Origin: Aquisphaera giovannonii
Lineage (GTDB): Bacteria > Planctomycetota > Planctomycetia > Isosphaerales > Isosphaeraceae
Assembly (NCBI RefSeq): GCF_008087625.1
Contig: NZ_CP042997.1
Coordinates: forward strand, 434,001-498,000
Length of the DNA stretch: 64,000 bases
Direction: 5' to 3'
Position numbers and translations under genes: made by a program. Within the stretch, counting starts at the first letter, position 1. Each line of letters opens with the position of its first letter. Of the stretch, positions 5,826 through 26,335 are shown one piece after another. The notes under the pieces were generated by a model. That model ran no database searches. It was not told where the DNA came from and saw only the letters and a list, made by a program, of their open reading frames with translations.

Positions 5826-7163
5826 ATGGACACCCCGCACGACTGGACAGGCCCCGATGCCGACGTCGGTCCCGACCCGATCGACGAGGACCTCCTCACC
5901 CTCTTCGCCCGGACCGCGCCCGAGGTGCCGCCGACGGACCTCGACTCGCTCTTCGCGCGGGGATTACCCGAAAGGAGACGCATCATGATCCTCAGGCTCG
6001 CCGCCGGCGCCCTCACCATGGCGGCCACCGCGGTGTTCGCCTTCCTCCTGACCCCCGGGCGCAGCGCCGCGGGGGTCAGCCTGGAGGAGGTCCAGCAGAA
6101 GGTCGCCGCCACGCAGACGCTGACGTGCACGGAGACGACGCTCGTCGACGGCAAGCCGCGGGACTCGTCGCGGATGCTGGTCGTCGCCCCGTCCCTCGTC
6201 CGCGACGAGCGGGACGACGGCTATGCGATCAACGATTTCCGGGCGAGGAGGACGCTCCTCGTCCGGACGAAGGAGAAGACCGCGACGATCCTCGAGGGGG
6301 TCGCGTTCCCGATCCCCGACGAGATGAACTTCTATTCGCTCTTCCGGGAGATCGCCCGCGAGCCGCTGAGGACGCTCCCCGAACGCCATGTCGACGGCAG
6401 GCCGGCGCTCGGATTCGTCGTGAAGGTCTTCGGGCATGAGGCCACGGTCTGGGTGGACCCGGCGACCAAGCTGCCGGTCCGCGTCGAGACCGAATCGGAC
6501 GAGGGCGGGAAGCGGACGACGGGGATCATGAGCGACTTCGTCTTCGACCGCCCGCTCGACCCGTCGCTGTTCGCGATGACCCCCCCAGAAGGCTACAAGG
6601 TGGAGACCCACGGCGTGGCCGAGCTCGCCCCCGAGCCGGCCGAGCAGGACCTGGCGGCGCCGGTACTGACGCCGCTGGTGGGCATCGGCCCGGCGCGGTT
6701 CGGCATGACCGAGGCCCAGGTCGTCAAGGCCCTGGGCAAGCCCGACCGGGCGAGCACGACGGGGACCATGAGGCTCCTGTCCTACTATTCGCGGGGCTTT
6801 GAGCTGATGGTCCTCCCCGAGGGCCGGCCCAAGCACGGCCTGTTCTGGGCCGTCGCCCTCGGAAAGCATGGGTTCATGCTCAAGCTCCGCGAGTTCCGGG
6901 GCAAAACCGACCGGGGCATCGGCCTGGGTGCCACGCGTGATGATGTGGTCAAGGCATACGGCCCGCCCGATCGCGAGCACCTCTCTCGCAACAGGGACGC
7001 CTTCAAGGACGCGGCCGATCCCGACAAGCCGACCGGCCAGGCCGAGATGTCCTACGACAGGCTGCAACTGAGCTTCACCCTCTGGGAGGGCAAGGTCTAC
7101 CAGATCCGGATCATGGCCCCGCCGCCGGCGGGCGTGAAGCCGGAGGGCACGAGGGCGAAGTGA
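5826..7163 (+). CDS. Membrane-anchored LolA-like protein paired with the ECF sigma factor
   Basis: This 445-residue protein has a cytoplasmic N terminus of about 55 residues (DEDLLTLFARTAPEVPPTDLDSLF), one transmembrane helix (ILRLAAGALTMAATAVFAFLL, about 54-75) and a periplasmic part. Residues about 83-265 (VSLEEVQQKVAATQTLTCTET, then VWVDPATKLPVRVE, then MSDFVFDRPLDPSLFAMTPPEGY) match the LolA/LolB-like fold common behind planctomycete ECF sigma genes. Residues about 280-435 contain two similar halves (IGPARFGMTEAQVVKALGKPD and IGLGATRDDVVKAYGPPDRE) that look like SmpA/BamE-type repeats. The position and topology suggest an anti-sigma or sigma-linked sensor; no zinc anti-sigma motif (HxxxCxxC) is present, so that role is inferred. 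Confidence 0.75.
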   Translation: MDTPHDWTGPDADVGPDPIDEDLLTLFARTAPEVPPTDLDSLFARGLPERRRIMILRLAAGALTMAATAVFAFLLTPGRSAAGVSLEEVQQKVAATQTLTCTETTLVDGKPRDSSRMLVVAPSLVRDERDDGYAINDFRARRTLLVRTKEKTATILEGVAFPIPDEMNFYSLFREIAREPLRTLPERHVDGRPALGFVVKVFGHEATVWVDPATKLPVRVETESDEGGKRTTGIMSDFVFDRPLDPSLFAMTPPEGYKVETHGVAELAPEPAEQDLAAPVLTPLVGIGPARFGMTEAQVVKALGKPDRASTTGTMRLLSYYSRGFELMVLPEGRPKHGLFWAVALGKHGFMLKLREFRGKTDRGIGLGATRDDVVKAYGPPDREHLSRNRDAFKDAADPDKPTGQAEMSYDRLQLSFTLWEGKVYQIRIMAPPPAGVKPEGTRAK

Positions 7164-7176
7164 CCGGGGGCCGGGC

Positions 7177-7195
7177 GGCCGCGGCGATCGCGGCC
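7177..7195. terminator. Hairpin between convergent genes
   Basis: A perfect 7-base-pair stem (GGCCGCG and CGCGGCC) with a 5-base loop sits between two convergent stop codons. No T-run follows, so it is at best a weak bidirectional terminator. Confidence 0.3.
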
Positions 7196-7196
7196 C

Positions 7197-7469
7197 TCAG
7201 GCCCTGGGCGCCGGGCCGGCCCCATCGCCGAGGCGGGTGGTGTCCGTGATGTAGCCGACGGCCAGCATGCAGAGGCTGGCGGCGAAGATCATGAGGATCG
7301 CCCCGAGGAGGCGGAGGGACGGATCCGCGGGGTTGTTCGCCGCCGGCCAGGGCCCGAGCTCGCGGCCGCGGAGCGCCGTGCCGCCGAGGGCCCGGCCGCC
7401 GAGCAGGAGGCCCGCGATCGACGGGACGGACGCCACGCGGGCCTTGCGGAGCACGTCGAAACCGGCCAT
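7197..7469 (-). CDS. Small membrane protein
   Basis: This is a 90-residue protein starting MAGFDVLRKARVASVPSIAG. The start at 7469 is set by a GGGAGG ribosome site four bases upstream. It has one weak hydrophobic segment (VPSIAGLLLGGRALGG) and one clear helix near residues 53-73 (LRLLGAILMIFAASLCMLAVGYI). The C terminus is DTTRLGDGAGPAPRA. It lies 65 bp downstream of the coiled-coil gene on the same strand and may be cotranscribed with it. The family is not recognised. Confidence 0.6.
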   Translation of the reverse strand: MAGFDVLRKARVASVPSIAGLLLGGRALGGTALRGRELGPWPAANNPADPSLRLLGAILMIFAASLCMLAVGYITDTTRLGDGAGPAPRA

Positions 7470-7534
7470 GGGACCTCCCCGCGACGGGGCCTGAAGGGGC
7501 GTGACGACGATCCGCGGAGGTGCGGCGAGCCCGC

Positions 7535-12375: not shown

Positions 12376-13215
12376 ATGGCAAGCCAGGCACCGGCCGTCT
12401 CCCGACGGGCCACGACCTCCGACCTGATCCTCCGGTGGAGCACCCTCTCCTACCTGGCGATCATGGTCGCCCTGCCGATGGTCGCCCTCGGCGTCCAGGC
12501 CGCGCGGCCGGGCCTCCGGCCGTTCTGGGAGGCCGTGACCGACCCGACGGCCTGGCACGCGCTGAAGCTGACGTTCATCACCGCGCTGATCATGGTCGCG
12601 ATCAACGCCGTCACCGGCACGGCCACCGCCTGGGTGCTCGTCCGCTACGACTTCCCCGGCCGGACGATCGTGAACGCCCTGATCGACCTCCCCTTCGCGG
12701 TGCCCACGGTCGTCACCGGCGTGATGCTCGTGATCCTGTACGGCCCGTCCAGCGTCGTCGGCACGGTGCTCGGCAAGTTCGGCTGGGGGGTCATCTACCA
12801 CCAGCCGGGCATCGTCCTGGCGCTCCTGTTCGTCACCTACCCGTTCGTGATCCGGAGCGTCCAGCCGGTCCTCATGGAGCTGGACCGCGCGGAGGAGGAG
12901 GCCGCCACGATCCTCGGCGCCGGGCCGTGGACGACCTTCCGCAAGATCACCCTCCCGGCGCTCTGGCCGTCGATCGTGACCGGCTCGGCCCTCTCGTTCA
13001 GCCGGGCTTTGGGCGAGTTCGGTAGCGTGATCCTGGTCGCCGGGAACCACCCGCTGCTGACCAAGACTGCGCCGCTGTACATCTACGGCGAGATCGAGAG
13101 CGGCAACCGCCACGGGGCCCTCGCGATCTCGGCGGTCCTGCTGGCCAGCTCGCTGACCATCCTCGTCGCGATCAACGCCCTTCAGGGCCGGGGAGGCGTG
13201 GACCATGGCGAGTGA
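12376..13215 (+). CDS. cysT: Sulfate ABC transporter permease subunit CysT
   Basis: This 279-residue protein has six predicted membrane helices and the binding-protein-dependent transport permease fold. Recognisable segments are the helix YLAIMVALPMVALGVQAA, the family stretch IDLPFAVPTVVTGVMLVILY, and the EAA loop that contacts the ATPase (EEEAATILGAGPWTTFRKIT). The ending SFSRALGEFGSVILVAGN is typical of CysT/CysU. With CysW it forms the inner-membrane sulfate channel. It overlaps cysW by 11 bases, indicating translational coupling. Confidence 0.92.
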   Translation: MASQAPAVSRRATTSDLILRWSTLSYLAIMVALPMVALGVQAARPGLRPFWEAVTDPTAWHALKLTFITALIMVAINAVTGTATAWVLVRYDFPGRTIVNALIDLPFAVPTVVTGVMLVILYGPSSVVGTVLGKFGWGVIYHQPGIVLALLFVTYPFVIRSVQPVLMELDRAEEEAATILGAGPWTTFRKITLPALWPSIVTGSALSFSRALGEFGSVILVAGNHPLLTKTAPLYIYGEIESGNRHGALAISAVLLASSLTILVAINALQGRGGVDHGE

Positions 13216-14092
13216 CCTGGGCCTGACGGGGGGCGAGGGCCGGAGGGTGGAGTTCTCGGCCTCGAAGCCCGTCGCGAGGGGCGCCTGGGGGCGCCGGCTG
13301 CTGATCGCGGCGGTGCTCGGCTGGTTCGCCATCCTCGTCCTCGTGCCGACGATCGCCCTGGCCCGGCAGGTCTTCCTGGGCGGGTTCAAGCCGTTCCTGG
13401 ACGCCCTGGCGCTGCCGGAGGTCCGCCGCGCGTTCGGCATGACGATCGGGATCACGGCGATCGCGACGGTCGTGAACACGGTCTTCGGCGTGGCCTTCGC
13501 CCTGGTGCTGACCCGCCAGCGGTTCCTCGGCCGGGCGCTCGCCGACGGCGTGGTGGACCTGCCGTTCGCCATCTCGCCGATCGTCGCCGGGCTCATGCTG
13601 ATCGTCCTGTACGGCCCCGAGGGCTGGATGGGCCGCTGGCTGGAGCCGCACGGCGTCCGGGTCGTGTATGCGGTCCCGGGCATGGTCCTGGCCACGATGT
13701 TCGTCACCGTCCCGTTCGTGGTCCGCGAGCTCGTGCCGGTGCTGCGGGAGCTCGGCGAGGAGTATGAGCAGGCCGCCCACACGCTGGGGGCCGGGCGCTG
13801 GCGGACCTTCTGGAGCGTCACGCTGCCGTCGATCCGCTGGGGCGTCGCCTACGGGGTGACCCTGACCATCGCGCGGTCGCTCGGCGAGTTCGGCGCGGTG
13901 CTCGTGGTCTCCGGCAACGTGATCGGCCACACCCAGACGGCCACGCTCTACATCGAGCAGGGCGTGGAGAGCTTCCGGCCCGAAGGGGCCTACGCCGCCA
14001 GCCTCGTCCTGGCGGCGGTCTCGTTCATCCTCCTCGTGGGCATGGAATACGTCCGCAAGCACGTCGAGGGGGGCAAGGAGACTCGTCCATGA
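13205..14092 (+). CDS. cysW: Sulfate ABC transporter permease subunit CysW
   Basis: This 295-residue permease has a hydrophilic N terminus of about 30 residues, then six helices starting [19 protein letters not shown]. The family region [20 protein letters not shown] and the EAA loop [20 protein letters not shown] are present, followed by [20 protein letters not shown], which is characteristic of CysW. It partners CysT. The C terminus ([14 protein letters not shown]) overlaps a possible upstream ATG for cysA by four bases. Confidence 0.92.
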
Positions 14093-16577: not shown

Positions 16578-16650
16578 CCCGAAAGCTGGATGGCCACGTC
16601 CCCGTCTTGCCGAAAGCTGGATGGCCCCGTCCCCGTCGGCCCCGTCCCCG
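16578..16650 (+). repeat. Repeat family R3, two units (CGAAAGCTGGATGGCC)
   Basis: Two direct copies of CCGAAAGCTGGATGGCC followed by CCGTCCCCGTC lie end to end. The same family forms the array at 18462-18785, where GATGG becomes GGTGG. Confidence 0.6.
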
Positions 16651-16674
16651 CCCCTGTTCACTTTCATTTGACTA

Positions 16675-16703
16675 TTGTTTGAAAGATATCACTGCATTAT
16701 GAG
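16675..16703 (+). promoter_or_regulatory. Possible promoter upstream of the cytochrome gene
   Basis: TTGTTT (16675-16680) and TATGAG (16698-16703) are 17 bases apart in an unusually AT-rich patch (about 16655-16800). The distance to the cytochrome start is about 370 bases, so a long leader would be needed. No other gene is evident between them. Confidence 0.3.
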
Positions 16704-17078
16704 TAGTGACGTGCGAGTGTTGTATTATGTGAGGAATTCGGAAGTGTGCCGCGATGGCCCATTGATTTCCCCGAACTGGATGTTTATGTTCTCTCAGGTG
16801 TGAGGCCGGTCCGCGCGAGATCTCTCACATTCACAGCAACGCCGCATCCATCGCGACTACAGTCAATTGCCCGCCGGGGCAGCGGGCCATCGACGAACCT
16901 CATCCCGTCATTCGAGGTTCGTCTTCGAAGGATCGACGCCGAGACGTCATCGCGGCGGGCACGGTCGTTCCTGCCGAACTCGCCGCCATCGTCATGATCT
17001 GGAGCGCCCCCGTCGAGGGCCGAGGGCGTGCGCGGCCCTAGGCCGCCCTCAGATCGGGACGCGAACGGAGGAAATCCA

Positions 17079-18413
17079 ATGCGATCGAGGATCCATTCGC
17101 GACACGACACGCTGCGCTCGCTGCTGATACTGGGCGCGTTCGCCTGTATCCTGGCGCTGGCCATGGTGGGGCCCGGCCATGGCCCCGTGAGCGGCCGCGC
17201 CGAGGGGGCCGCCCCCCCTCCCAAAAGGAGCCTTGCCCCCGGCCCGCAGGTGGTGCTGAGAGCTGCGGCCAGGAAGCCGAAGAAGAAGCCGAAGCGATCG
17301 GCGACCCAGACGTCATCCGTCGTCACGACCCCATGGGTTGTGCTCGGTTACAACGACCTGGGCATGCACTGCATGAACCAGGATTTCTCGGAGATCTGCA
17401 TCCTGCCGCCGTATAACAACCTGCACGCGCAGGTCATTCGCCGAGGGCCCGAGCCGCAGATCATGGCCCTGGGAGCGGTCGTCCGGTATTCGATACCGGG
17501 CAACACGATCTCGTCCAACAAGACCAACTTCTGGACCTACGCGAGGGCGCTGTTCGGGGTCAATCTGGCACCCGACGTCGGGCTGACCGGCAACCGGCTC
17601 TCCGGCACGATGACCCCCACCCTCTCTCGCGACTGGCAGGCCACCGGGATACCCCTCACGCCGATCATGGACAACGGGGCGCTCAACCCCTACGCCCTCG
17701 CGACGATCGACGCCTACGATACGGGGGGCAGGAAGATGGCCACCACGAGGGCCGTGGTACCCGTCTCCTGGGAGATCAGCTGCGACCTCTGCCACGGCGT
17801 CACGAACACGGCCTCCAACATCCTCCAGGCCCACGATCGGCTCCATCATACGAACCTTCACAACAACAAGCCCGTCCTGTGCTCGGGTTGTCATGCCGAT
17901 CCGGCGCTCGGGAAGCCGGGAGTCGCCGGCGTGCCCACGCTCTCCGCGTCGATGCACACGGCCCACGCCAGTCGCTTCACCCCCGCGGTGATGAACGCCG
18001 TCGGCGGGATCAACTGCTACGCCTGCCATCCGGGCATCCAGACCCACTGCCAGCGCGACGTCCACCTCGCGAACGGGATCCACTGCGGCGATTGCCACGG
18101 GTCCATGGCCGCGGTCGGCAACCCCCTCCGCACGCCGTGGGTCGACGAGCCGAAATGCTCGAACTGCCACCACGTCCCGGGGCATCAGTACGAGGAGCCC
18201 GGCAAGCTCTACAAGCAGTCGAGGGGCCACAACGGGGTGATGTGCGCCGCATGCCACGGCTCGCCGCACGCCATCACGCCCACCGTCACCCCCAACGACA
18301 ACGTCCAGGCGCTCGCGATCCAGGGCCACGCCGGCACCATCGACCGTTGCGTCGTCTGCCACAAATCGACGCCCGAGGACGGCTTCAACCACTCGTTCGA
18401 CGGCGGCGACTGA
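17079..18413 (+). CDS. Heptaheme c-type cytochrome
   Basis: This 444-residue exported protein starts MRSRIHSRHDTLRSLLILGA and has a hydrophobic signal segment (LLILGAFACILALAMVGP). GGAGGAA lies six bases upstream of the ATG. A Lys-rich stretch is followed by a conserved-looking domain at about 85-230 (VVLGYNDLGMHCMNQDFSEI). Seven CxxCH heme motifs then follow: CDLCH 235, CSGCH 268, CYACH 313, CGDCH 336, CSNCH 360, CAACH 389 and CVVCH 424. It is likely a periplasmic electron carrier or a subunit of a respiratory or metal-reducing chain. No partner quinol oxidase or reductase gene is adjacent. The gene is isolated within a repeat island. Confidence 0.88.
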   Translation: MRSRIHSRHDTLRSLLILGAFACILALAMVGPGHGPVSGRAEGAAPPPKRSLAPGPQVVLRAAARKPKKKPKRSATQTSSVVTTPWVVLGYNDLGMHCMNQDFSEICILPPYNNLHAQVIRRGPEPQIMALGAVVRYSIPGNTISSNKTNFWTYARALFGVNLAPDVGLTGNRLSGTMTPTLSRDWQATGIPLTPIMDNGALNPYALATIDAYDTGGRKMATTRAVVPVSWEISCDLCHGVTNTASNILQAHDRLHHTNLHNNKPVLCSGCHADPALGKPGVAGVPTLSASMHTAHASRFTPAVMNAVGGINCYACHPGIQTHCQRDVHLANGIHCGDCHGSMAAVGNPLRTPWVDEPKCSNCHHVPGHQYEEPGKLYKQSRGHNGVMCAACHGSPHAITPTVTPNDNVQALAIQGHAGTIDRCVVCHKSTPEDGFNHSFDGGD

Positions 18414-18461
18414 CGATCGGCCGCGTCGACGCCTCGAGAGGTGCGGTCGCCCGCGCCTCCG

Positions 18462-18785
18462 CGAGCGGTCGGGGCCGAGCGGTCGGGGCCACCCACCTTC
18501 TGGCGAGCGGTCGCGAGCGGTCGGGGCCACCCACCTTCTGGCGAGCGGTCGGGGCGAGCGGTCGGGGCGGAGCGGTCGGGGCCACCCACCTTCTGGGGCC
18601 GAGCGGTCGGGGCCACCCACCTTCTGCGGCGATCGCCCGGAGCGGTCGGGGCGGAGCGGTCGGGGCCACCCACCTTCTGCGGCGATCGCCCGAAAGCTGG
18701 GTGGCCCCGTTTGCCGGCCCGAAAGCTGGGTGGCCCCGTTTGCCGCCCGCCCCGTTTGCCGCTCGCCCCGTTTGCCGCCCGCCCC
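18462..18785. repeat. Repeat family R3 array, five units facing two
   Basis: Five minus-oriented units (GGGGCCACCCACCTTCTG) between about 18484 and 18680 are separated by variable GAGCGGTCGGGGC spacers. They face two plus-oriented units (CGAAAGCTGGGTGGCCCCG, 18690-18745), followed by repeated GCCCCGTTTGCC. The inward junction near 18675-18700 could form a cruciform. There are no unique spacers, so this is not a CRISPR array. Confidence 0.7.
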
Positions 18786-18809
18786 GTTTGCCGCCCCTCG
18801 CGACATCTC

Positions 18810-19043
18810 TTGACCTCGGTTTTCGAACGGCTTCGCCCCCCCCCGCGCCGAGGGCTTTTACTCCCTTTTGCCCGTACCCCACAGCCCGGGTGGCTGGGGC
18901 AGAGCCGCAGGCGATGCCCCGGGATCGCCGCGGCGCCGGGCGAGGCGCGGCCTGCCCGCCCGGTCCCTCCCGGCCCGGTTCCCCGCCATCGCCGGCCGAG
19001 TCCCATCCTGCCCCTGGCGCGCTCCGCTCGGGCCGACATCCAC
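18810..19043. repeat. Dispersed repeat R4, copy C
   Basis: This copy begins TTGACCTCGGTTTTCGAACG like copy A and ends GCTCGGGCCGACATCCACC like copy B. It lacks the roughly 70-base upstream part seen in A and B. It directly precedes the tandem array. Confidence 0.65.
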
Positions 19044-19110
19044 CTCGATGTCGGCCCGAGCACCGACCTCCGAATTGCCAAACCGGGCCCGAGCGACCCG
19101 CCCGCCTGGG

Positions 19111-19711
19111 AAAGCCGTCGGTGTCAGGAAAGCCGTCGGAAAGCCGTCGGTGTCGGAAAGCCGTCGGTGTCAGAAAGCCGTCGGTGTCAGAAAGCCGTCG
19201 GTGTCAAGAAAGCCGTCGGTGTCAAGAAAGCCGTCGGTGTCAGATCTATTTCCCCCACCACTGAGAAAGCCGTCGGTGTCAGATCTATTTCCCCCACCAC
19301 TGGAGAAAGCCGTCGGTGTCAGATCTATTTCCCCCACCACTGAGAAAGCCGTCGGTGTCAAAAGCCGTCGGCAAAAGCCGTCGGTGTCAGATCTATTTCC
19401 CCCACCACTGCAGAAAGCCGTCGGTGTCAGATCTATTTCCCCCACCACTGAAAGCCGTCGGTGTCAGATCTATTTCCCCCACCACTGAGAAAGCCGTCGG
19501 GAAAGCCGTCGGTGTCAAAGCCGTCGGTGTCAGATCTATTTCCCCCACCACTGAAAGCCGTCGGCAAAGCCGTCGGTGTCAGATCTATTTCCCCCACCAC
19601 TGAAAGCCGTCGGTGTCAGCCGTCGGTGTCAGATCTATTTCCCCCACCACTGGAAAGCCGTCGGTGTCAGATCGAAAGCCGTCGGTGTCAGATCTATTTC
19701 CCCCACCACTG
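19111..19711. repeat. Two-module tandem repeat array
   Basis: Module A is AAAGCCGTCGGTGTCA (16 bases) and module B is GATCTATTTCCCCCACCACT plus G (21 bases). I count 20 full A modules, four A modules truncated after GTCGG, ten full B modules and one B stub (GATC). B never occurs without A before it, whereas the first six A modules have no B. Junctions vary (CAGG, CAAG, CTGAG, CTGGAG, CTGCAG). The array ends in the palindrome CCACCACTGTGGTGG. All reading frames stay largely open simply because neither module contains frequent stops; there is no ribosome site or start. Confidence 0.9.
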
Positions 19712-19750
19712 TGGTGGAAAAATATGCCGGGGCATCGATGGAATTGGGCG

Positions 19751-20140
19751 TCAGCACTCGTAGCCCGTCGCGACCCAGTAGTGCCAGTCCTCGACCGCCT
19801 GGCGGGTCTCGTCGTCGCCGTGGACAACCTCCAATTGCGACAGGGGCACAGCCAGCGTCCGCTTCTTCGCCCAGGATATCTCCACGAACATCTCCCGCAT
19901 GCACTCGTCTTCGGGGGCCATTCCGACGACCTCGACCTCGTCGCCGGTCCCCAGGGGTGAGATCGCCCGCTCCTTGATGCAGCGGGCCGGGAACGGGAAG
20001 TTTAGCTTCTCCTCCAGGTAGCAGTACCACCCGGCCGCCCGCTCGGACTCGTCGTAAGCGTCCACGACGATTTCCATGGTGATCCGATTCTCGCGGGCCT
20101 CGTCCCTCTTCGGCTTCTTCGGCTTCTTCGGCCTGGCCAT
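19751..20140 (-). CDS. CcbP-like calcium-binding protein
   Basis: This 129-residue protein starts MARPKKPKKPKRDEARENR; GGAGA lies upstream of the ATG at 20140. The core is acidic: WYCYLEEKLNFPFPARCI, ISPLGTGDEVEVVGMAPEDE, FVEISWAKKRTLAVPLSQLE and DWHYWVATGYEC. This pattern matches the CcbP (Calci_bind) family, whose Anabaena member binds Ca2+ through acidic surface residues and buffers calcium during heterocyst formation. Here the role is probably calcium or divalent-ion binding. The Lys/Pro-rich N terminus is an added feature. The 3' end lies 40 bp from the tandem array. Confidence 0.75.
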   Translation of the reverse strand: MARPKKPKKPKRDEARENRITMEIVVDAYDESERAAGWYCYLEEKLNFPFPARCIKERAISPLGTGDEVEVVGMAPEDECMREMFVEISWAKKRTLAVPLSQLEVVHGDDETRQAVEDWHYWVATGYEC

Positions 20141-20340
20141 GAGAATCTCCTCGATCGAAGACCATTTCTCACGAAGGTTGCCCGCATGCTCGGGCTTCAG
20201 CCCCGCACGGCAGGATACCAGGGGGCCTCGGATCCCAGGGGCAGGAGCCATTTGAGATGGCATTCGACCCTATCGTACTTTTCGCTGCCTGTCTCTCTTG
20301 TGCTACCCAACCCAGCCGAGGACTCATGCCGCGCTCGACG

Positions 20341-20358
20341 AAGCCCGGCCCCGGGCTT
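20341..20358 (-). terminator. Hairpin downstream of the HTH gene
   Basis: The sequence AAGCCCGGCCCCGGGCTT is a strong short inverted repeat located 26 bases past the stop of the minus-strand HTH gene. There is no U-tract, so confidence is low. Confidence 0.3.
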
Positions 20359-20384
20359 TGCGCCGGGCGACCGACTCACGACGC

Positions 20385-20966
20385 CTAACTGGCCGGCCCC
20401 GTTTCGTCGCCACCGACGTCGCTTTCGACGACCCGACCGCGCCAGTGCGTCGGGTCCCCCTCGATCTCGCCGAGGAATCTCCGGACCATCGCGCTCGGGG
20501 GGCGGTTCCCCTGCTTGCAGGGCCGGACCGTACCCGCCTCGACGCCCAGGGAGGACGCGAACACGGCCTGGCTCATGCCGAGCAGGCCACGCATCCGCCG
20601 CACATCGTCCGGGCCGTATTCCCTCGTCGTGAAGTCGGCCTTGTACGTGCGCACGGTGAGTTGCCGCACCGTTGGCTCGCCGGAGCGCATCGCCTCGATC
20701 GCCTCCTCATTCTTCTCACCGGCCGGCGTTCGCTTCGTGGAGCCCCCCCCGGACGAGGCCGATCGCCTCGCCGCGGCCCCATTCGTCTCAGCCCCGCTCG
20801 TCCTGCCCATCGCCCCTGCTCTTCGCCCCTGCCCCGGCCAATCCGGCCTCCGACCCAACTCCCTCTCGAGTTCGGCTCGAGAGGCCCGGACGACCGCCGC
20901 GATCGCGTTGCGGTCCGCCTGCGTGAGGTCGCTCTTCTCGTTCTTCCCGAGGACGACGACCAGCAT
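20385..20966 (-). CDS. HigA-like HTH antitoxin, fused in frame to a toxin remnant
   Basis: The frame encodes 193 residues. The C-terminal half (about 115-165) is an XRE-type helix-turn-helix (DVRRMRGLLGMSQAVFASSL, then VEAGTVRPCKQGNRPPSA). The preceding region (EEAIEAMRSGEPTVRQLTVR) is typical of HigA-2/MqsA-like antitoxins. Residues 1-45 (MLVVVLGKNEKSDLTQADRN) match the C-terminal end of HigB/RelE-type toxins (usual LLxVYGKNEKxDLT). An in-frame TGA lies 11 codons upstream, and the toxin body is missing. The antitoxin itself would start at Met53 (20810). The usual SWEQG after the recognition helix reads PCKQG, suggesting decay. DNA binding may therefore be impaired. Confidence 0.6.
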   Translation of the reverse strand: MLVVVLGKNEKSDLTQADRNAIAAVVRASRAELERELGRRPDWPGQGRRAGAMGRTSGAETNGAAARRSASSGGGSTKRTPAGEKNEEAIEAMRSGEPTVRQLTVRTYKADFTTREYGPDDVRRMRGLLGMSQAVFASSLGVEAGTVRPCKQGNRPPSAMVRRFLGEIEGDPTHWRGRVVESDVGGDETGPAS

Positions 20967-21000
20967 CCGCGATCGGGGCCGTCCACTCCGGGTGACTCAC
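20811..21000 (-). pseudogene. Remnant of HigB/RelE-type toxin
   Basis: Only the last roughly 55 codons of a toxin are recognisable, ending with GKNEKSDLT and an Ala/Arg-rich helix. The stop-containing frame upstream (TGA about 33 bases before the first Met) and the mmsA stop at 21080 leave no space for the catalytic core. This is a partial deletion, not a simple frameshift. Confidence 0.45.
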
Positions 21001-21079
21001 CTTGCGGGCGGCCCACCTGCCTTGCCTCGGAGGATGGGCGGCGCCGTCCCTGCCGGGCCCTTTCCGGCCGCCCGTTCGA

Positions 21080-22615
21080 TCAGAGCCATCCTCCCTCCGG
21101 CGCCTCGGCACCGGGCCAGCGGTCCGTGATCACCTTCTTTCGCGTGTAGAAGGCCACGGCGTCGGCACCCTGCGTATTGTGATAGCCATAGATCGAATCC
21201 TTCCAGCCGCCGAACGGGAAGAACCCCATCGGCGCCGGCACGGCGACATTGATGCCCAGCATCCCGGCCTGGATGCGTTCGCGGAAGATGCGGGCCGACG
21301 CCCCGGATTGCGTGAATAGGCAGGCGGTGTTGCCGTATCGGCTGCGGTTCGCCATCGTGATCGCCGCGTCCAGGTCCGGCGCACGCATCACGCTCACCAC
21401 CGGGCCGAAGATCTCCTCCCGGCCGACGAACATCTCCGGCGTCACGTCGTCGAGGACGGTCGCCCCGAGGAAGCAGCCCCTCGGCCTCTGCGGCGCGGCC
21501 CGGGAGCGGCCGTCGAGGCGGAGGCGGGCCCCCTCCCCCACCCCTCGCTCGATCGCGGCCCGGATCCGCTCCAACGCCTCCGGGTTCACCACGGGGCAGA
21601 GCGTCGCGGCCTCGTCCAGGCCGTCCCCCGGGGTGAGCTCACCGGCCGCGCGGAGGAAGGCGTCGACGACGGCGTGCTGCCGCGCCCGATCGCCGACCAC
21701 CACGAGCACGCTCACGGCGAGGCAGCGCTGGCCCGCGGAGCCGAAGCACGATCCGATCATCTCGGGCAGGATGCGCCCCAGGTCGGCGTCGGGCAGGACG
21801 AGCAGGTGGTTCTTCGCACCTCCGTGCGCCTGGACGCGCTTGCCGTGGGCCGCCGCGATGCGGTAGGCCGACCCCGCCACGGCGGACGTGCCGACGAAGG
21901 AGACCGCCTGGACGTGCGGGTCGGCGATGAGCCGTTCGCTGACTTCCCGGCCCCCCTGCACCACGCCGACGACGCCCGGCGGCAGGCCGGCATCGGCGAA
22001 CATCTCCGCGAGCCCGGTGCCGGTGAGCGGCGCCTTCTCGGCGGGTTTGAGGAGGAACGTGTTCCCGCAGGCGACGGCGACCGACATCATCCAGAGCGGG
22101 ATCAGGGCCGGGAAATTGAACGGCGGGATGCCGACCACCACGCCCATGGGTTCTCGGAAGGTGAGGCAGTCGACATCGCGCGAGACGTCGGACAGGGCCT
22201 GGCCCATCATCTGGGACGGGATGCCGCAGGCGAAGTCGACGACATCGATCCCGCGCCGGAGCTCGGCACGCGCCTCCCGCAGCAGCTTGCCGTTCTCGCG
22301 GACGATGCCGCGAGCCACGTCCTCGAAGCTCCTCTCGAGCCGCTCACGGAACCGGAACAGGACGTGGGCCCGATCCGGCGCCGGGGTGGCGCGCCAGCCG
22401 GGGAAGGCGCGGGCGGCGGCGGCGCACGCCTCCGTCACCTGATCCGGCGCGGCCTCGCGCACTGGCGCCAGCAGCTCGGCCGTGTCCGCCGGATTGAAGA
22501 TGTCGCGGCTCGCGTCTCCCCGCCCCTCGACCCAGGTCCCGCCGATCAGGTTCGGCGCAAGGGCCCGGCGCGAGGATGTCGCGGGCGGCCGATCCTGGGC
22601 GGCGATCGCGCTCAT
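21080..22615 (-). CDS. mmsA: CoA-acylating methylmalonate-semialdehyde dehydrogenase
   Basis: This 511-residue aldehyde dehydrogenase superfamily protein oxidises (methyl)malonate semialdehyde with NAD+ and CoA to propionyl-CoA or acetyl-CoA, in valine, thymine or inositol breakdown. Family features include NLIGGTWVEGRGDASRDIFN, the cofactor region VVVGIPPFNFPALIPLWMMS, HGGAKNHLLVLPDADL, the catalytic cysteine in FGSAGQRCLAVSV, and the MmsA-type ending PFGGWKDSIYGYHNTQGADA. Length is normal. It is not accompanied by mmsB or iol genes. The next gene upstream on the same strand is an aldo/keto reductase 55 bp away, so the pair may form an operon. Confidence 0.9.
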   Translation of the reverse strand: MSAIAAQDRPPATSSRRALAPNLIGGTWVEGRGDASRDIFNPADTAELLAPVREAAPDQVTEACAAAARAFPGWRATPAPDRAHVLFRFRERLERSFEDVARGIVRENGKLLREARAELRRGIDVVDFACGIPSQMMGQALSDVSRDVDCLTFREPMGVVVGIPPFNFPALIPLWMMSVAVACGNTFLLKPAEKAPLTGTGLAEMFADAGLPPGVVGVVQGGREVSERLIADPHVQAVSFVGTSAVAGSAYRIAAAHGKRVQAHGGAKNHLLVLPDADLGRILPEMIGSCFGSAGQRCLAVSVLVVVGDRARQHAVVDAFLRAAGELTPGDGLDEAATLCPVVNPEALERIRAAIERGVGEGARLRLDGRSRAAPQRPRGCFLGATVLDDVTPEMFVGREEIFGPVVSVMRAPDLDAAITMANRSRYGNTACLFTQSGASARIFRERIQAGMLGINVAVPAPMGFFPFGGWKDSIYGYHNTQGADAVAFYTRKKVITDRWPGAEAPEGGWL

Positions 22616-22670
22616 GATGCCCTCCGCAAGCCGGAGAATCCGCCCCGCGTCCGAGCGCAGGGTGCCGCGG

Positions 22671-23663
<993 letters not shown>

Positions 23664-24595
23664 GGCGAGGCCTCCTCCGTTCATTCGGGTTGGCCGCGTG
23701 ATCCGGGGCGGCGCCCCGAACGCCCGGCACATCGCGCAGGAGCACGGGGGGATCGGGCCGGAGGATCAGGCGAACCGGGCGCCGCCGCAGGGCAGACTCG
23801 TCCGGCGGGACGGACGCCCCAAGGATATCCCCAGGTGATGATTCGAGCAATGCCTGGGCCCGGGGCGGGAGCGCCAATGCTCCGCGGGGCCGCTGGCGGA
23901 TCTCCGCCCGCCGGTAACGATCCCCGTCGCGACCAAGCCCGGCGGATTCACAGGCCGGGGTGAGAAGCCGAGCCGCATTCGGGGCCACCCTGCCGTTCGA
24001 GCCGCGGAAGTTGTGTGGCCCGGATGGGGCCCCGAAGTTGTGTGGCCCGGATGTGGCCCTTCCTGGACGGCGAGGCCCGGCGGGGAGTTTGGGGCCCCAT
24101 CGCTGGGCATGGAAGGCGGGTGGCCGGGATGGCCGGTGGACCCGACAGCCGCTGCGACGACTCGGTCACTCCGGTGACACATGCCGACGTGGGCGATCTG
24201 GCCTCTTCCCTCCCGGCGGCCGGCGCGTTATGCCATGTCAACGGCGGCCTGCACGTCGATCGTCGGCCGGGCGAATCTCGTCCTCACGAGCGGGTCCTGG
24301 GATGGGTGCGAGAGCCACTCTCCGGGCTCGGGGCTCACCCGTGCCGAGGGGGCGCGTTTCGTCGCCGCCGGGAATTCGGGTCCAAATCTCGGGAGGGCGA
24401 GGCTCCAGCCGAGCCCCCGCGCGGCTCGGCTGGAGCCTCGCCCTCCCGAGAATCGAGCCGTGACAGGGCCAGAGCCCCTCGCCGCGGCGGGCCCGGCCGC
24501 CGGCCTCGACTGTCGCCTGGTCGTCGCTCGGCGCACGTGGCCGGGGCCACCGAGCCGGGTCGTTCGGCGTGGGGAACCACCGAGGGGGGGACGCG
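23664..24595. other. Gene-free stretch with short repeats
   Basis: No supported gene is present in this 930-bp divergent region. It holds two tandem copies of GAAGTTGTGTGGCCCGGATG near 24006-24057, which resemble degenerate R3 units, and the R5 palindrome at 24388-24450. Open frames on both strands are compositional shadows. Confidence 0.5.
24388..24450. repeat. Palindromic repeat R5 (GAGGCTCCAGCCGAGCC)
   Basis: Two perfect inverted 28-base arms (24388-24415 and 24423-24450) flank a 7-base loop; each arm contains GGGAGGGCGAGGCTCCAGCC. A partial related arm occurs near 30960. This element recurs widely in planctomycete intergenic DNA (family knowledge, not tested here). Confidence 0.75.
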
Positions 24596-25783
24596 ATGCC
24601 GAGGTGCGAGAACTGTGGCGTCGAGCTCTCACTCCCGACGGACCGGTGCCAGGAGTGCGGCCACCCGCTGCAACTGACGTTCGACCCGATGGGGACGAGC
24701 ACCGATCTCGGCCCGGGTGGCCACGCCCACACGCCGACGCCGCAGGGGACGCTCCCCGACGACGACGCGGCGAAGGTCGAGCGGCTCCTCGGCCACATCG
24801 CCGGGCAGTCCCACTTCGAGGAGCGATACATCCTGCGCGGCGAGCTCGCGCGGGGCGGGATGGGGCAGGTCCACCGCGGGTATGACCAGATCCTCCGGCG
24901 GGAAGTCGCCGTCAAGATGATGCACGAGCGGTACGGAGGGTCCTCCGAGAGCGCGGCCATCCGGGGGCAGTTCCTGAAGGAGGCGCGGGTCGGCGGGCGG
25001 CTCCTGCACCCGAACATCCTCGCCGTGTTCGACCTGGGGGTGAACCGGGCCGGCCGCATCTATTACACCATGAGGCTGGTGGACGGGGCGTCGCTGCAGC
25101 ACTGCCTGGACGCGGTGGACAAGGGGGTGGTGACGAAGCTGATCTCGTACCCGCTCCGCCGGATCGTCGAGGCGTTCGTGGGCGCCTGCCAGGGGGTCGA
25201 TTACGCGCACCAGCAGGGGGTCATCCACCTGGACCTCAAGCCGCACAACATCCTGGTCTCGGGCTTCAACGAGGTGTTCGTCATCGACTGGGGGCTGGCC
25301 CGGGTGGACGAGAGGGACGACACCGAGGAGCTCGCGGACCTCTACCGGAGCGGGGGCGCCGGCCACAACACGGCCTCCAACACCGGGGTGTTCGGCGAGC
25401 GGGTCATCGGGACGCCGGGGTACATGGCGCCCGAGCAGACGCGGGGCGAGGTGGCCGCGTTCGACCCCGCCACGGACGTCTACGGCCTGGGCGGGATCCT
25501 CCACTTCATCCTGTATGGCATCGCCCCGAACCAGGGGCGCGGCCTCCAGGAGGTCATGCAGGCCAGCGCGCAGCCCAAGCAGCGGGGCAAGCTGCGGGGC
25601 GGCATCCTGCCGCGAGGCCAGCGCGTCCGGAAGGAGGCGAGGGCCGCCCTGGAGGCCCTCGAGGCGACCTGCCTCAAGGCGCTCGAGCCCCGGCAGGAGG
25701 ATCGCTACGCCTCGGTCGAGGCCATGATCGTGGAGCTGGGCGAGTGGCTCTCGGCGACGCCCGGGCCGCCGCTGGGTTTCTGA
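24596..25783 (+). CDS. Zinc-ribbon Ser/Thr protein kinase
   Basis: This 395-residue protein starts MPRCENCGVE after a GAGGGGGGG ribosome site. Cys4, Cys7, Cys18 and Cys21 form a zinc ribbon. The kinase domain spans about 80-385: glycine loop ELARGGMGQVHRG, invariant Lys in REVAVKMMHERY, catalytic loop HLDLKPHN (usual HRD Arg replaced by Leu), DWGLARVD for DFG, and GTPGYMAPEQTRGE. There is no membrane helix, so it is a soluble cytoplasmic kinase. HLD and DWG variants are frequent in planctomycete kinases and do not by themselves imply inactivity. No substrate is indicated by the neighbours. Confidence 0.88.
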   Translation: MPRCENCGVELSLPTDRCQECGHPLQLTFDPMGTSTDLGPGGHAHTPTPQGTLPDDDAAKVERLLGHIAGQSHFEERYILRGELARGGMGQVHRGYDQILRREVAVKMMHERYGGSSESAAIRGQFLKEARVGGRLLHPNILAVFDLGVNRAGRIYYTMRLVDGASLQHCLDAVDKGVVTKLISYPLRRIVEAFVGACQGVDYAHQQGVIHLDLKPHNILVSGFNEVFVIDWGLARVDERDDTEELADLYRSGGAGHNTASNTGVFGERVIGTPGYMAPEQTRGEVAAFDPATDVYGLGGILHFILYGIAPNQGRGLQEVMQASAQPKQRGKLRGGILPRGQRVRKEARAALEALEATCLKALEPRQEDRYASVEAMIVELGEWLSATPGPPLGF

Positions 25784-26335
25784 GAGGCCACGACCCGGGC
25801 CAGGCCGAGTGCCGAATTCGCCCCGAACCCAGGGCGGGCGAACGGGGCCTCCCTCGCCTGCGGGGGAACGAGGCCTGGGCGAGCGGGGCCGGGCGGACGA
25901 GGCCATACAGGTTCGCGATCAGGACGACTCACTTTCGCAGGCGGCGGGGCGACTCACGTTCCATGCCGCGAAAGATGGGTGGCCCCGTTCGACGCCGTTC
26001 GACGCCCTCCGTTCGACGCGCCCTGTTCGCGGCCCATATCCCGCCCGCGGCCCTCGGAAGCTCGGCTCGGCCTCGAGACTAACCCGAACGGATCGAGGCC
26101 GCTCTCGGATTGCGACAGCATCGGATCGCACGCAAATCGTGCTGGGGAGAATAGGCCCGGAGCGATCGTCGTTCGCCGTGATCGGGTGAACGATAGATGG
26201 AAAGTTCACATCGCCCGCGGCCATGTCCTATCTTCGCCACAGGCGCTCGCAGCGCCGTGCCTGCCGAGGATCGTCGCAATGCCGGCATGGGGCCTCGGCG
26301 CGAGGCCCGAGCCCATACCGAAGGGGAATCGCCCG
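25784..26335. other. Gene-free stretch before the YDG gene
   Basis: No gene is supported in these 550 bases. One degenerate R3 unit (CGAAAGATGGGTGGCCCCG) is at about 25968-25986, followed by short repeats of GTTCGACGCC. The long frame upstream of 26336 continues through here but lacks coding character. Confidence 0.5.

Follow-up and report, generated by a model that had tools for sequence, protein, structure and literature searches.

A 601-base repeat array in the genome of Aquisphaera giovannonii raises the question of how repeats that obey a strict order of parts could have arisen. The array lies in the window, that is, the whole stretch of 64,000 nucleotides that was analysed, and the first-pass annotation had described it as a tandem array of two modules, A (16 bp) and B (21 bp), at 19111–19711. 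Parsing reproduced these coordinates exactly, together with the tallies of 20 full A units, four truncated A units, ten B units, and one B stub. However, the two-module view had to be replaced by that of one prefix-nested 37-nt unit, and the array was resolved as follows.

19111–19711, plus strand: nested-prefix array, 24 exact prefixes of AAAGCCGTCGGTGTCAGATCTATTTCCCCCACCACTG, parsed from the sequence
19675–19711, plus strand: rightmost full unit, which runs into unique downstream DNA
19695–19724, no strand assigned: inverted repeat TATTTCCCCCACCAC/TGTGGTGGAAAAATA, located where the last unit ends on its inner side, from the sequence

The left end of the units was fixed, the right end varied (11, 15–18, 20, or 37 nt), and 0–3 filler nucleotides lay between units. 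Among the 24 anchors, four ended at 11 nt (AAAGCCGTCGG) and 20 reached the end of A; ten full B units and one GATC stub at 19670–19673 were parsed. Accordingly, the order "B always follows A" stood, since B is the continuation of A in a single unit truncated from the right, while its reading as two modules did not. One unit was without the first two A's. Not a single substitution was found over the 24 units, which suggests recent growth or homogenisation. Chance would give 2.7 copies of AGCCGTCGG in the window and none of the 21-nt B unit, but 26 and 10 were counted, 24 of the former inside the array; a chance origin of the repeats was thus excluded. TRF also detected the array, and a 108-bp period was seen. 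As the first-pass annotation had held, plain slippage was rejected, and so was CRISPR, because the linkers measured 0–3 nt and there were no unique spacers of regular length. Two regular arrays whose 32-nt repeats (GTCGCCCCC-[AC/AT]GCGGGGGCGTGGATTGAAAC) alternate with unique spacers were observed elsewhere in A. giovannonii, at L071:11304-11511 and 12898-13438, and are CRISPR arrays.

In the rightmost full unit, the GGTGTCA core was located at 19684–19690, 9 nt inside the fixed boundary. The inverted repeat beyond it may be the core of a decayed pair of terminal inverted repeats (TIRs), and the DNA fold of 19675–19735, which covers the last unit and the inverted repeat, was not significant (z -1.35). 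The 37-nt unit itself folded no better than shuffled sequences (z 0.39). The array sits between two convergent genes, and further arrays were found in the same intergenic region and nearby.

17028–18413, plus strand: multihaem cytochrome c-like open reading frame, left neighbour (Pfam Cytochrome_C7)
19751–20263, minus strand: CcbP-like calcium-binding protein, right neighbour (gene call and domain match)
18461–18680, plus strand: second nested-prefix array, 10 units, GAGCGGTC then GGGGCCACCCACCTTCTG.., identical prefix rule
18688–18796, minus strand: convergent partner array, 5 units, CGGCAAAC then GGGGCCACCCAGCTTTCG..
16579–16646, minus strand: small nested array of the same terminal-repeat type, GACGGGG..CCATCCAGCTTTCGG
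24007–24053, minus strand: duplicated CATCCGGGCCACACAACTTC, of a related terminal-repeat type
25969–26019, minus strand: three-unit nested array, GCGTCGAACGG / GCGTCGAACGG / CGTCGAACGGGGCCACCCATCTTTCG

The two convergent arrays at 18461–18796 are based on GGGGCCACCCA, their innermost copies form an inverted pair, and the fold of this pair (18647–18715) gave a z of -2.0. As a side observation, five separate nested or duplicated terminal-repeat sites fell within about 9.5 kb (16579–26019), a local hotspot. The synteny of the neighbouring genes around the main array was not conserved in the relatives compared, where no orthologous empty site was comparable. Elsewhere in the genome, the unit itself had weak matches only, and none of the 39 relatives searched shared an exact 20-mer with it.

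The prefix rule was not confined to this sequence. It held in 22 other parsed arrays from A. giovannonii and four relatives, with other sequences, and rule-free arrays, which the first-pass annotation had named as evidence against its A-before-B rule, did not turn up. The further arrays of A. giovannonii came from a sampled 1.6 Mb of the genome, in regions picked partly by motif or transposase, so array density is not readable from them; among systematically placed 20-kb chunks, nested arrays occurred in L050 only. The clearest array (L050:1449-2543) comprised more than 40 units that begin at GACAAACGG, and its last units reached up to about 70 nt into unique downstream sequence. This showed that every event copies a local stretch whose left end is fixed and whose right end varies. 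By-eye reading of the translation at L050:1350-1450 showed the left array abutting, and seemingly interrupting, an IS630-like transposase frame.

Triple GGGGTCAG arrays were present in 9 of 45 family genomes (40 matches, against 10 for a reversed control pattern), and G042, another of the family genomes that carry such arrays, also followed the prefix rule. The rule was clear in a locus from Lentisphaerota (L191) and in one from Kiritimatiellota (L192), and loosely present in one from Verrucomicrobiota (L219); the 8-kb locus in Kiritimatiellota contained a gene for a REP-associated tyrosine transposase (RAYT, of the Y1/HUH type), as did the locus in Verrucomicrobiota. These three loci suggest a wider spread of prefix-nested arrays in related phyla. 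A scan of named genomes for three copies of GGTGTCAG returned mostly heptamer (GGTGTCA)n or coding repeats, and a strict nesting test was passed by 4 of the 80 loci. One of the four, L241, was set aside as a heptamer-type repeat rather than a nested array. Two other loci (L209 and L256) each carried plain (GGTGTCA)n arrays and a RAYT gene, which may be core-only expansions or coincidence.

The positions of the core and of the unit ends were compared. In 20 of 23 parsed arrays, a count biased by the motif-based selection of many loci, a GGKGNCA core started 3–11 nt (mostly 8–11) inside the fixed boundary, against 0.4% at random positions. The outer anchor was specific to each locus and no sequence was common to the fixed boundaries; hence, either a distance or a guide would have to define the boundary. 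The right ends, pooled from 13 arrays and counted from the core start, lay at +1–2 (16), +4–8 (70), +9–15 (9), +16–22 (50), +23–27 (0), and +28–31 (13); these counts are descriptive only, because units in one array are not independent. The clusters lie approximately where the core stops, where the roughly 20-nt terminal repeat stops, and farther inward; given this match with the core and TIR ends, no helical spacing of the inner ends is claimed. Fillers were mostly 0–5 nt, and most junctions had filler and no microhomology.

RAYT genes were repeatedly bordered by such arrays. The A. giovannonii genome contained six Y1_Tnp genes, and the long RAYT type made up two further loci. Both long RAYT genes (L050:2739-3887 and L061:8434-9732, the latter on the minus strand) were below the curated Pfam and NCBIfam cut-offs, and each was flanked on both sides by convergent nested arrays. 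At C1:8353160, a short RAYT scored above both cut-offs (Pfam Y1_Tnp, 57.4 bits; NCBIfam NF047646, REP_Tyr_transpos, 87.6 bits). Its GGTGTCAGTTCATTTTTC, 5' of the ATG, is of the window's end type (GGTGTCAG..TC..TTT), and GGTGTCAGTTCATTTTTCTTG before the same ATG matches the window core GGTGTCAGATCTATTTCC in type. The neighbouring RAYT had a nested array directly upstream. Among the relatives, nested copies occurred at RAYT ends in seven loci (L123, L133, L150, L153, L155, L157, and L158), and the longest units in L157 reached into the RAYT start codon region. In G010, the related GGTGTCAGATCATAATxTTTCC lay on both sides of the RAYT. Nested TIR pairs within 600 nt were detected at 5 of 19 RAYT loci, compared with 0.1% of random control stretches, and the test behind this count missed the nested copies of L150. 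The main array adjoins no RAYT, and the nearest Y1 gene, one of another type, is about 58 kb distant; the array is a solo or relic end and not a whole TIRtron. As most terminal repeats of its type are solo, expansion would be occasional.

Two other Y1 loci were also observed. In L041 (the C1:511168 region), a Y1 transposase gene lies between inverted GTAGGGTGCGTC-type repeats, like a classical GTAG REPtron, and the genome may thus hold more than one RAYT class. At L042:6066-6403 and 7019-7504, palindromic GTGGGAGCCGGCTCC..GTCCGGCGAC repeats are reiterated to either side of a Y1 transposase gene, in inverted orientation.

Taken as a whole, the array is best explained, with moderate confidence, as a run of one-ended tandem duplications at the TIR of a RAYT (or TIRYT) element. 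Cleavage by HUH enzymes yields a 3'-OH able to prime replication, and strand transfer can resolve their 5'-phosphotyrosine link (PMC8266576). A fixed outer end and a variable inner end with filler are what would be expected from a site-specific nick, displacement synthesis, and rejoining. In the proposed sequence of events, an HUH nuclease would bind the TIR and nick the strand just outside it, and the old strand would be displaced as the 3'-OH primed short synthesis across the TIR. Once this synthesis had halted within the protein-bound TIR or on reaching it, the new 3' end would be joined to the 5'-phosphotyrosine end, by which one prefix copy would be added leftward. Repeated rounds, with later unequal exchange of multi-unit blocks, would then build the array. 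Ku was found in neither A. giovannonii nor 29 relatives (30 genomes), which makes Ku-dependent end joining unlikely, and it was discarded as unsupported. The window array would be a footprint of possibly past transposase activity, as a solo end or a REPIN-like relic, and no functional role is needed. Among the origins offered by the first-pass annotation (an unstable recombination substrate, a protein-binding array, or a scar of repeated insertions), the last came near, with repeated one-ended duplications at a transposase end-sequence in place of insertions.

The strongest rival, which we consider rather unlikely, is replication slippage or template switching without a transposase, in which the TIR, an inverted repeat, or a bound protein would stall the polymerase, which would then restart at the upstream anchor and leave prefix copies. 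Such a process could yield similar products. The inverted repeat after the last unit and the fold of the innermost convergent pair are consistent with stalling, the inner ends cluster as polymerase stops would, and the 108-bp period implies that multi-unit blocks must come from unequal exchange. However, the 37-nt unit lacks a fold better than that of shuffles, most junctions carry filler instead of microhomology, and both ends of an element expand toward each other, so that growth is not tied to one replication strand. Slippage also leaves the set distance of the boundary outside the transposase end-sequence unexplained.

Serial insertion, in which a RAYT would move short single-stranded TIR pieces into the same target beside an existing TIR, is improbable. 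The location of the arrays at RAYT ends fits it, and the literature supports the mobility of RAYTs and REPINs (PMC3116915), but the units carry the outer flank of their own locus and the longest ones its unique inner flank (L050, L061, and L157). The copies are therefore local, since insertion from elsewhere would bring foreign flanks. An array under selection as a decoy, operator, or nucleoid site, with a protein-binding or regulatory role, is very improbable: multiple identical sites and the position of some arrays directly 5' of RAYT start codons would suit it, but the spacing is irregular, units are truncated, anchors are locus-specific, and the main array lies between convergent genes that are not conserved with it in relatives. 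Although repeats are error-prone in assembly, an artefact in this three-contig assembly can practically be dismissed, as like architecture with other sequences recurred in independent assemblies, including large contigs.

The duplication reading with a transposase at its TIR carries a further claim, which is put forward tentatively and may well not hold: that RAYTs or TIRYTs perform a reaction not described before, in which the DNA at their own terminal repeat is repeatedly nicked, copied by short displacement synthesis, and rejoined, so that one-ended nested arrays grow while the element stays in place. If true, this reaction would be the missing "second mechanism" behind REP and TIR clusters. 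The arrays would then serve as its fossil record and bear on how RAYTs spread and cluster repeats, with the nick side, the preferred stop points, and the junction fillers readable directly from the array sequence. The predicted cut lies 5' of AAAGCC, about 9 nt outside GGTGTCAG, and is testable in vitro on AAAGCCGTCGGTGTCAGATCTATTTCC. Moreover, the arrays would offer a natural example of nickase-driven, locally targeted DNA amplification.

Several known systems resemble these arrays in part. GTAG- or CGTC-tagged REP clusters and BIMEs share clustered repeats, variable flank lengths, and a link to Y1 transposases. However, REPs are tagged stem-loops, whereas the window unit does not fold and is without GTAG, and the CGTC in the window anchor is not kept across arrays of its type; an identity with tagged stem-loops of 20–40 nt was thus ruled out. 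In IS91-like one-ended transposition, an HUH rolling-circle process, one end is likewise fixed by the nick and the other is variable. IS91 transposases are of the Y2 type and give long replicative products at new sites, whereas the enzymes here are Y1 and the duplications local and 10–90 nt long.

Also close are the TIRtrons or TIRYTs, RAYT-like transposase genes between terminal inverted repeats with the consensus GGGGWSAS (Di Nocera 2013, PMC3733652). The transposase family is shared, the ends occur singly, paired, or grouped, and the terminal motifs found here (GGGGTCAG, GGGGACA, GGTGTCAG, and GGGGCCAC) are of the same kind (PMC3733652). The GGGGTCAG/GGGGACA arrays elsewhere match the consensus, and the window core GGTGTCAG agrees with it at 7 of 8 positions, one base off. 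Unlike TIRtrons, the window array has no adjoining transposase gene, and the paper, as far as could be found, describes grouped TIRs without prefix-nested arrays of fixed outer boundary (PMC3733652).

In Pseudomonas fluorescens SBW25, tandem REPIN clusters adjoin RAYT genes, and Bertels and Rainey (2011) inferred a second, unknown mechanism for their formation (PMC3116915). These clusters likewise show tandem copies of a 5' flank, a repeat, and a shorter 3' flank with short non-repeated separators, but they consist of whole REPINs, with at most four in the largest (PMC3116915), whereas the arrays here consist of single ends, up to about 50 per array, with several inner truncation points. As for the hairpin of two inverted ends that defines a REPIN, the pair at 18647–18715 folded, and the main array had a partial inverted partner only. 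No published description of prefix-nested, one-ended arrays was found in the literature searched. Thus, TIRtrons or TIRYTs with GGGGWSAS ends and grouped TIRs (PMC3733652) and tandem REPIN clusters beside RAYTs (PMC3116915) are already known, and the one-ended, nested, filler-joined form of cluster is, as far as could be found, new.
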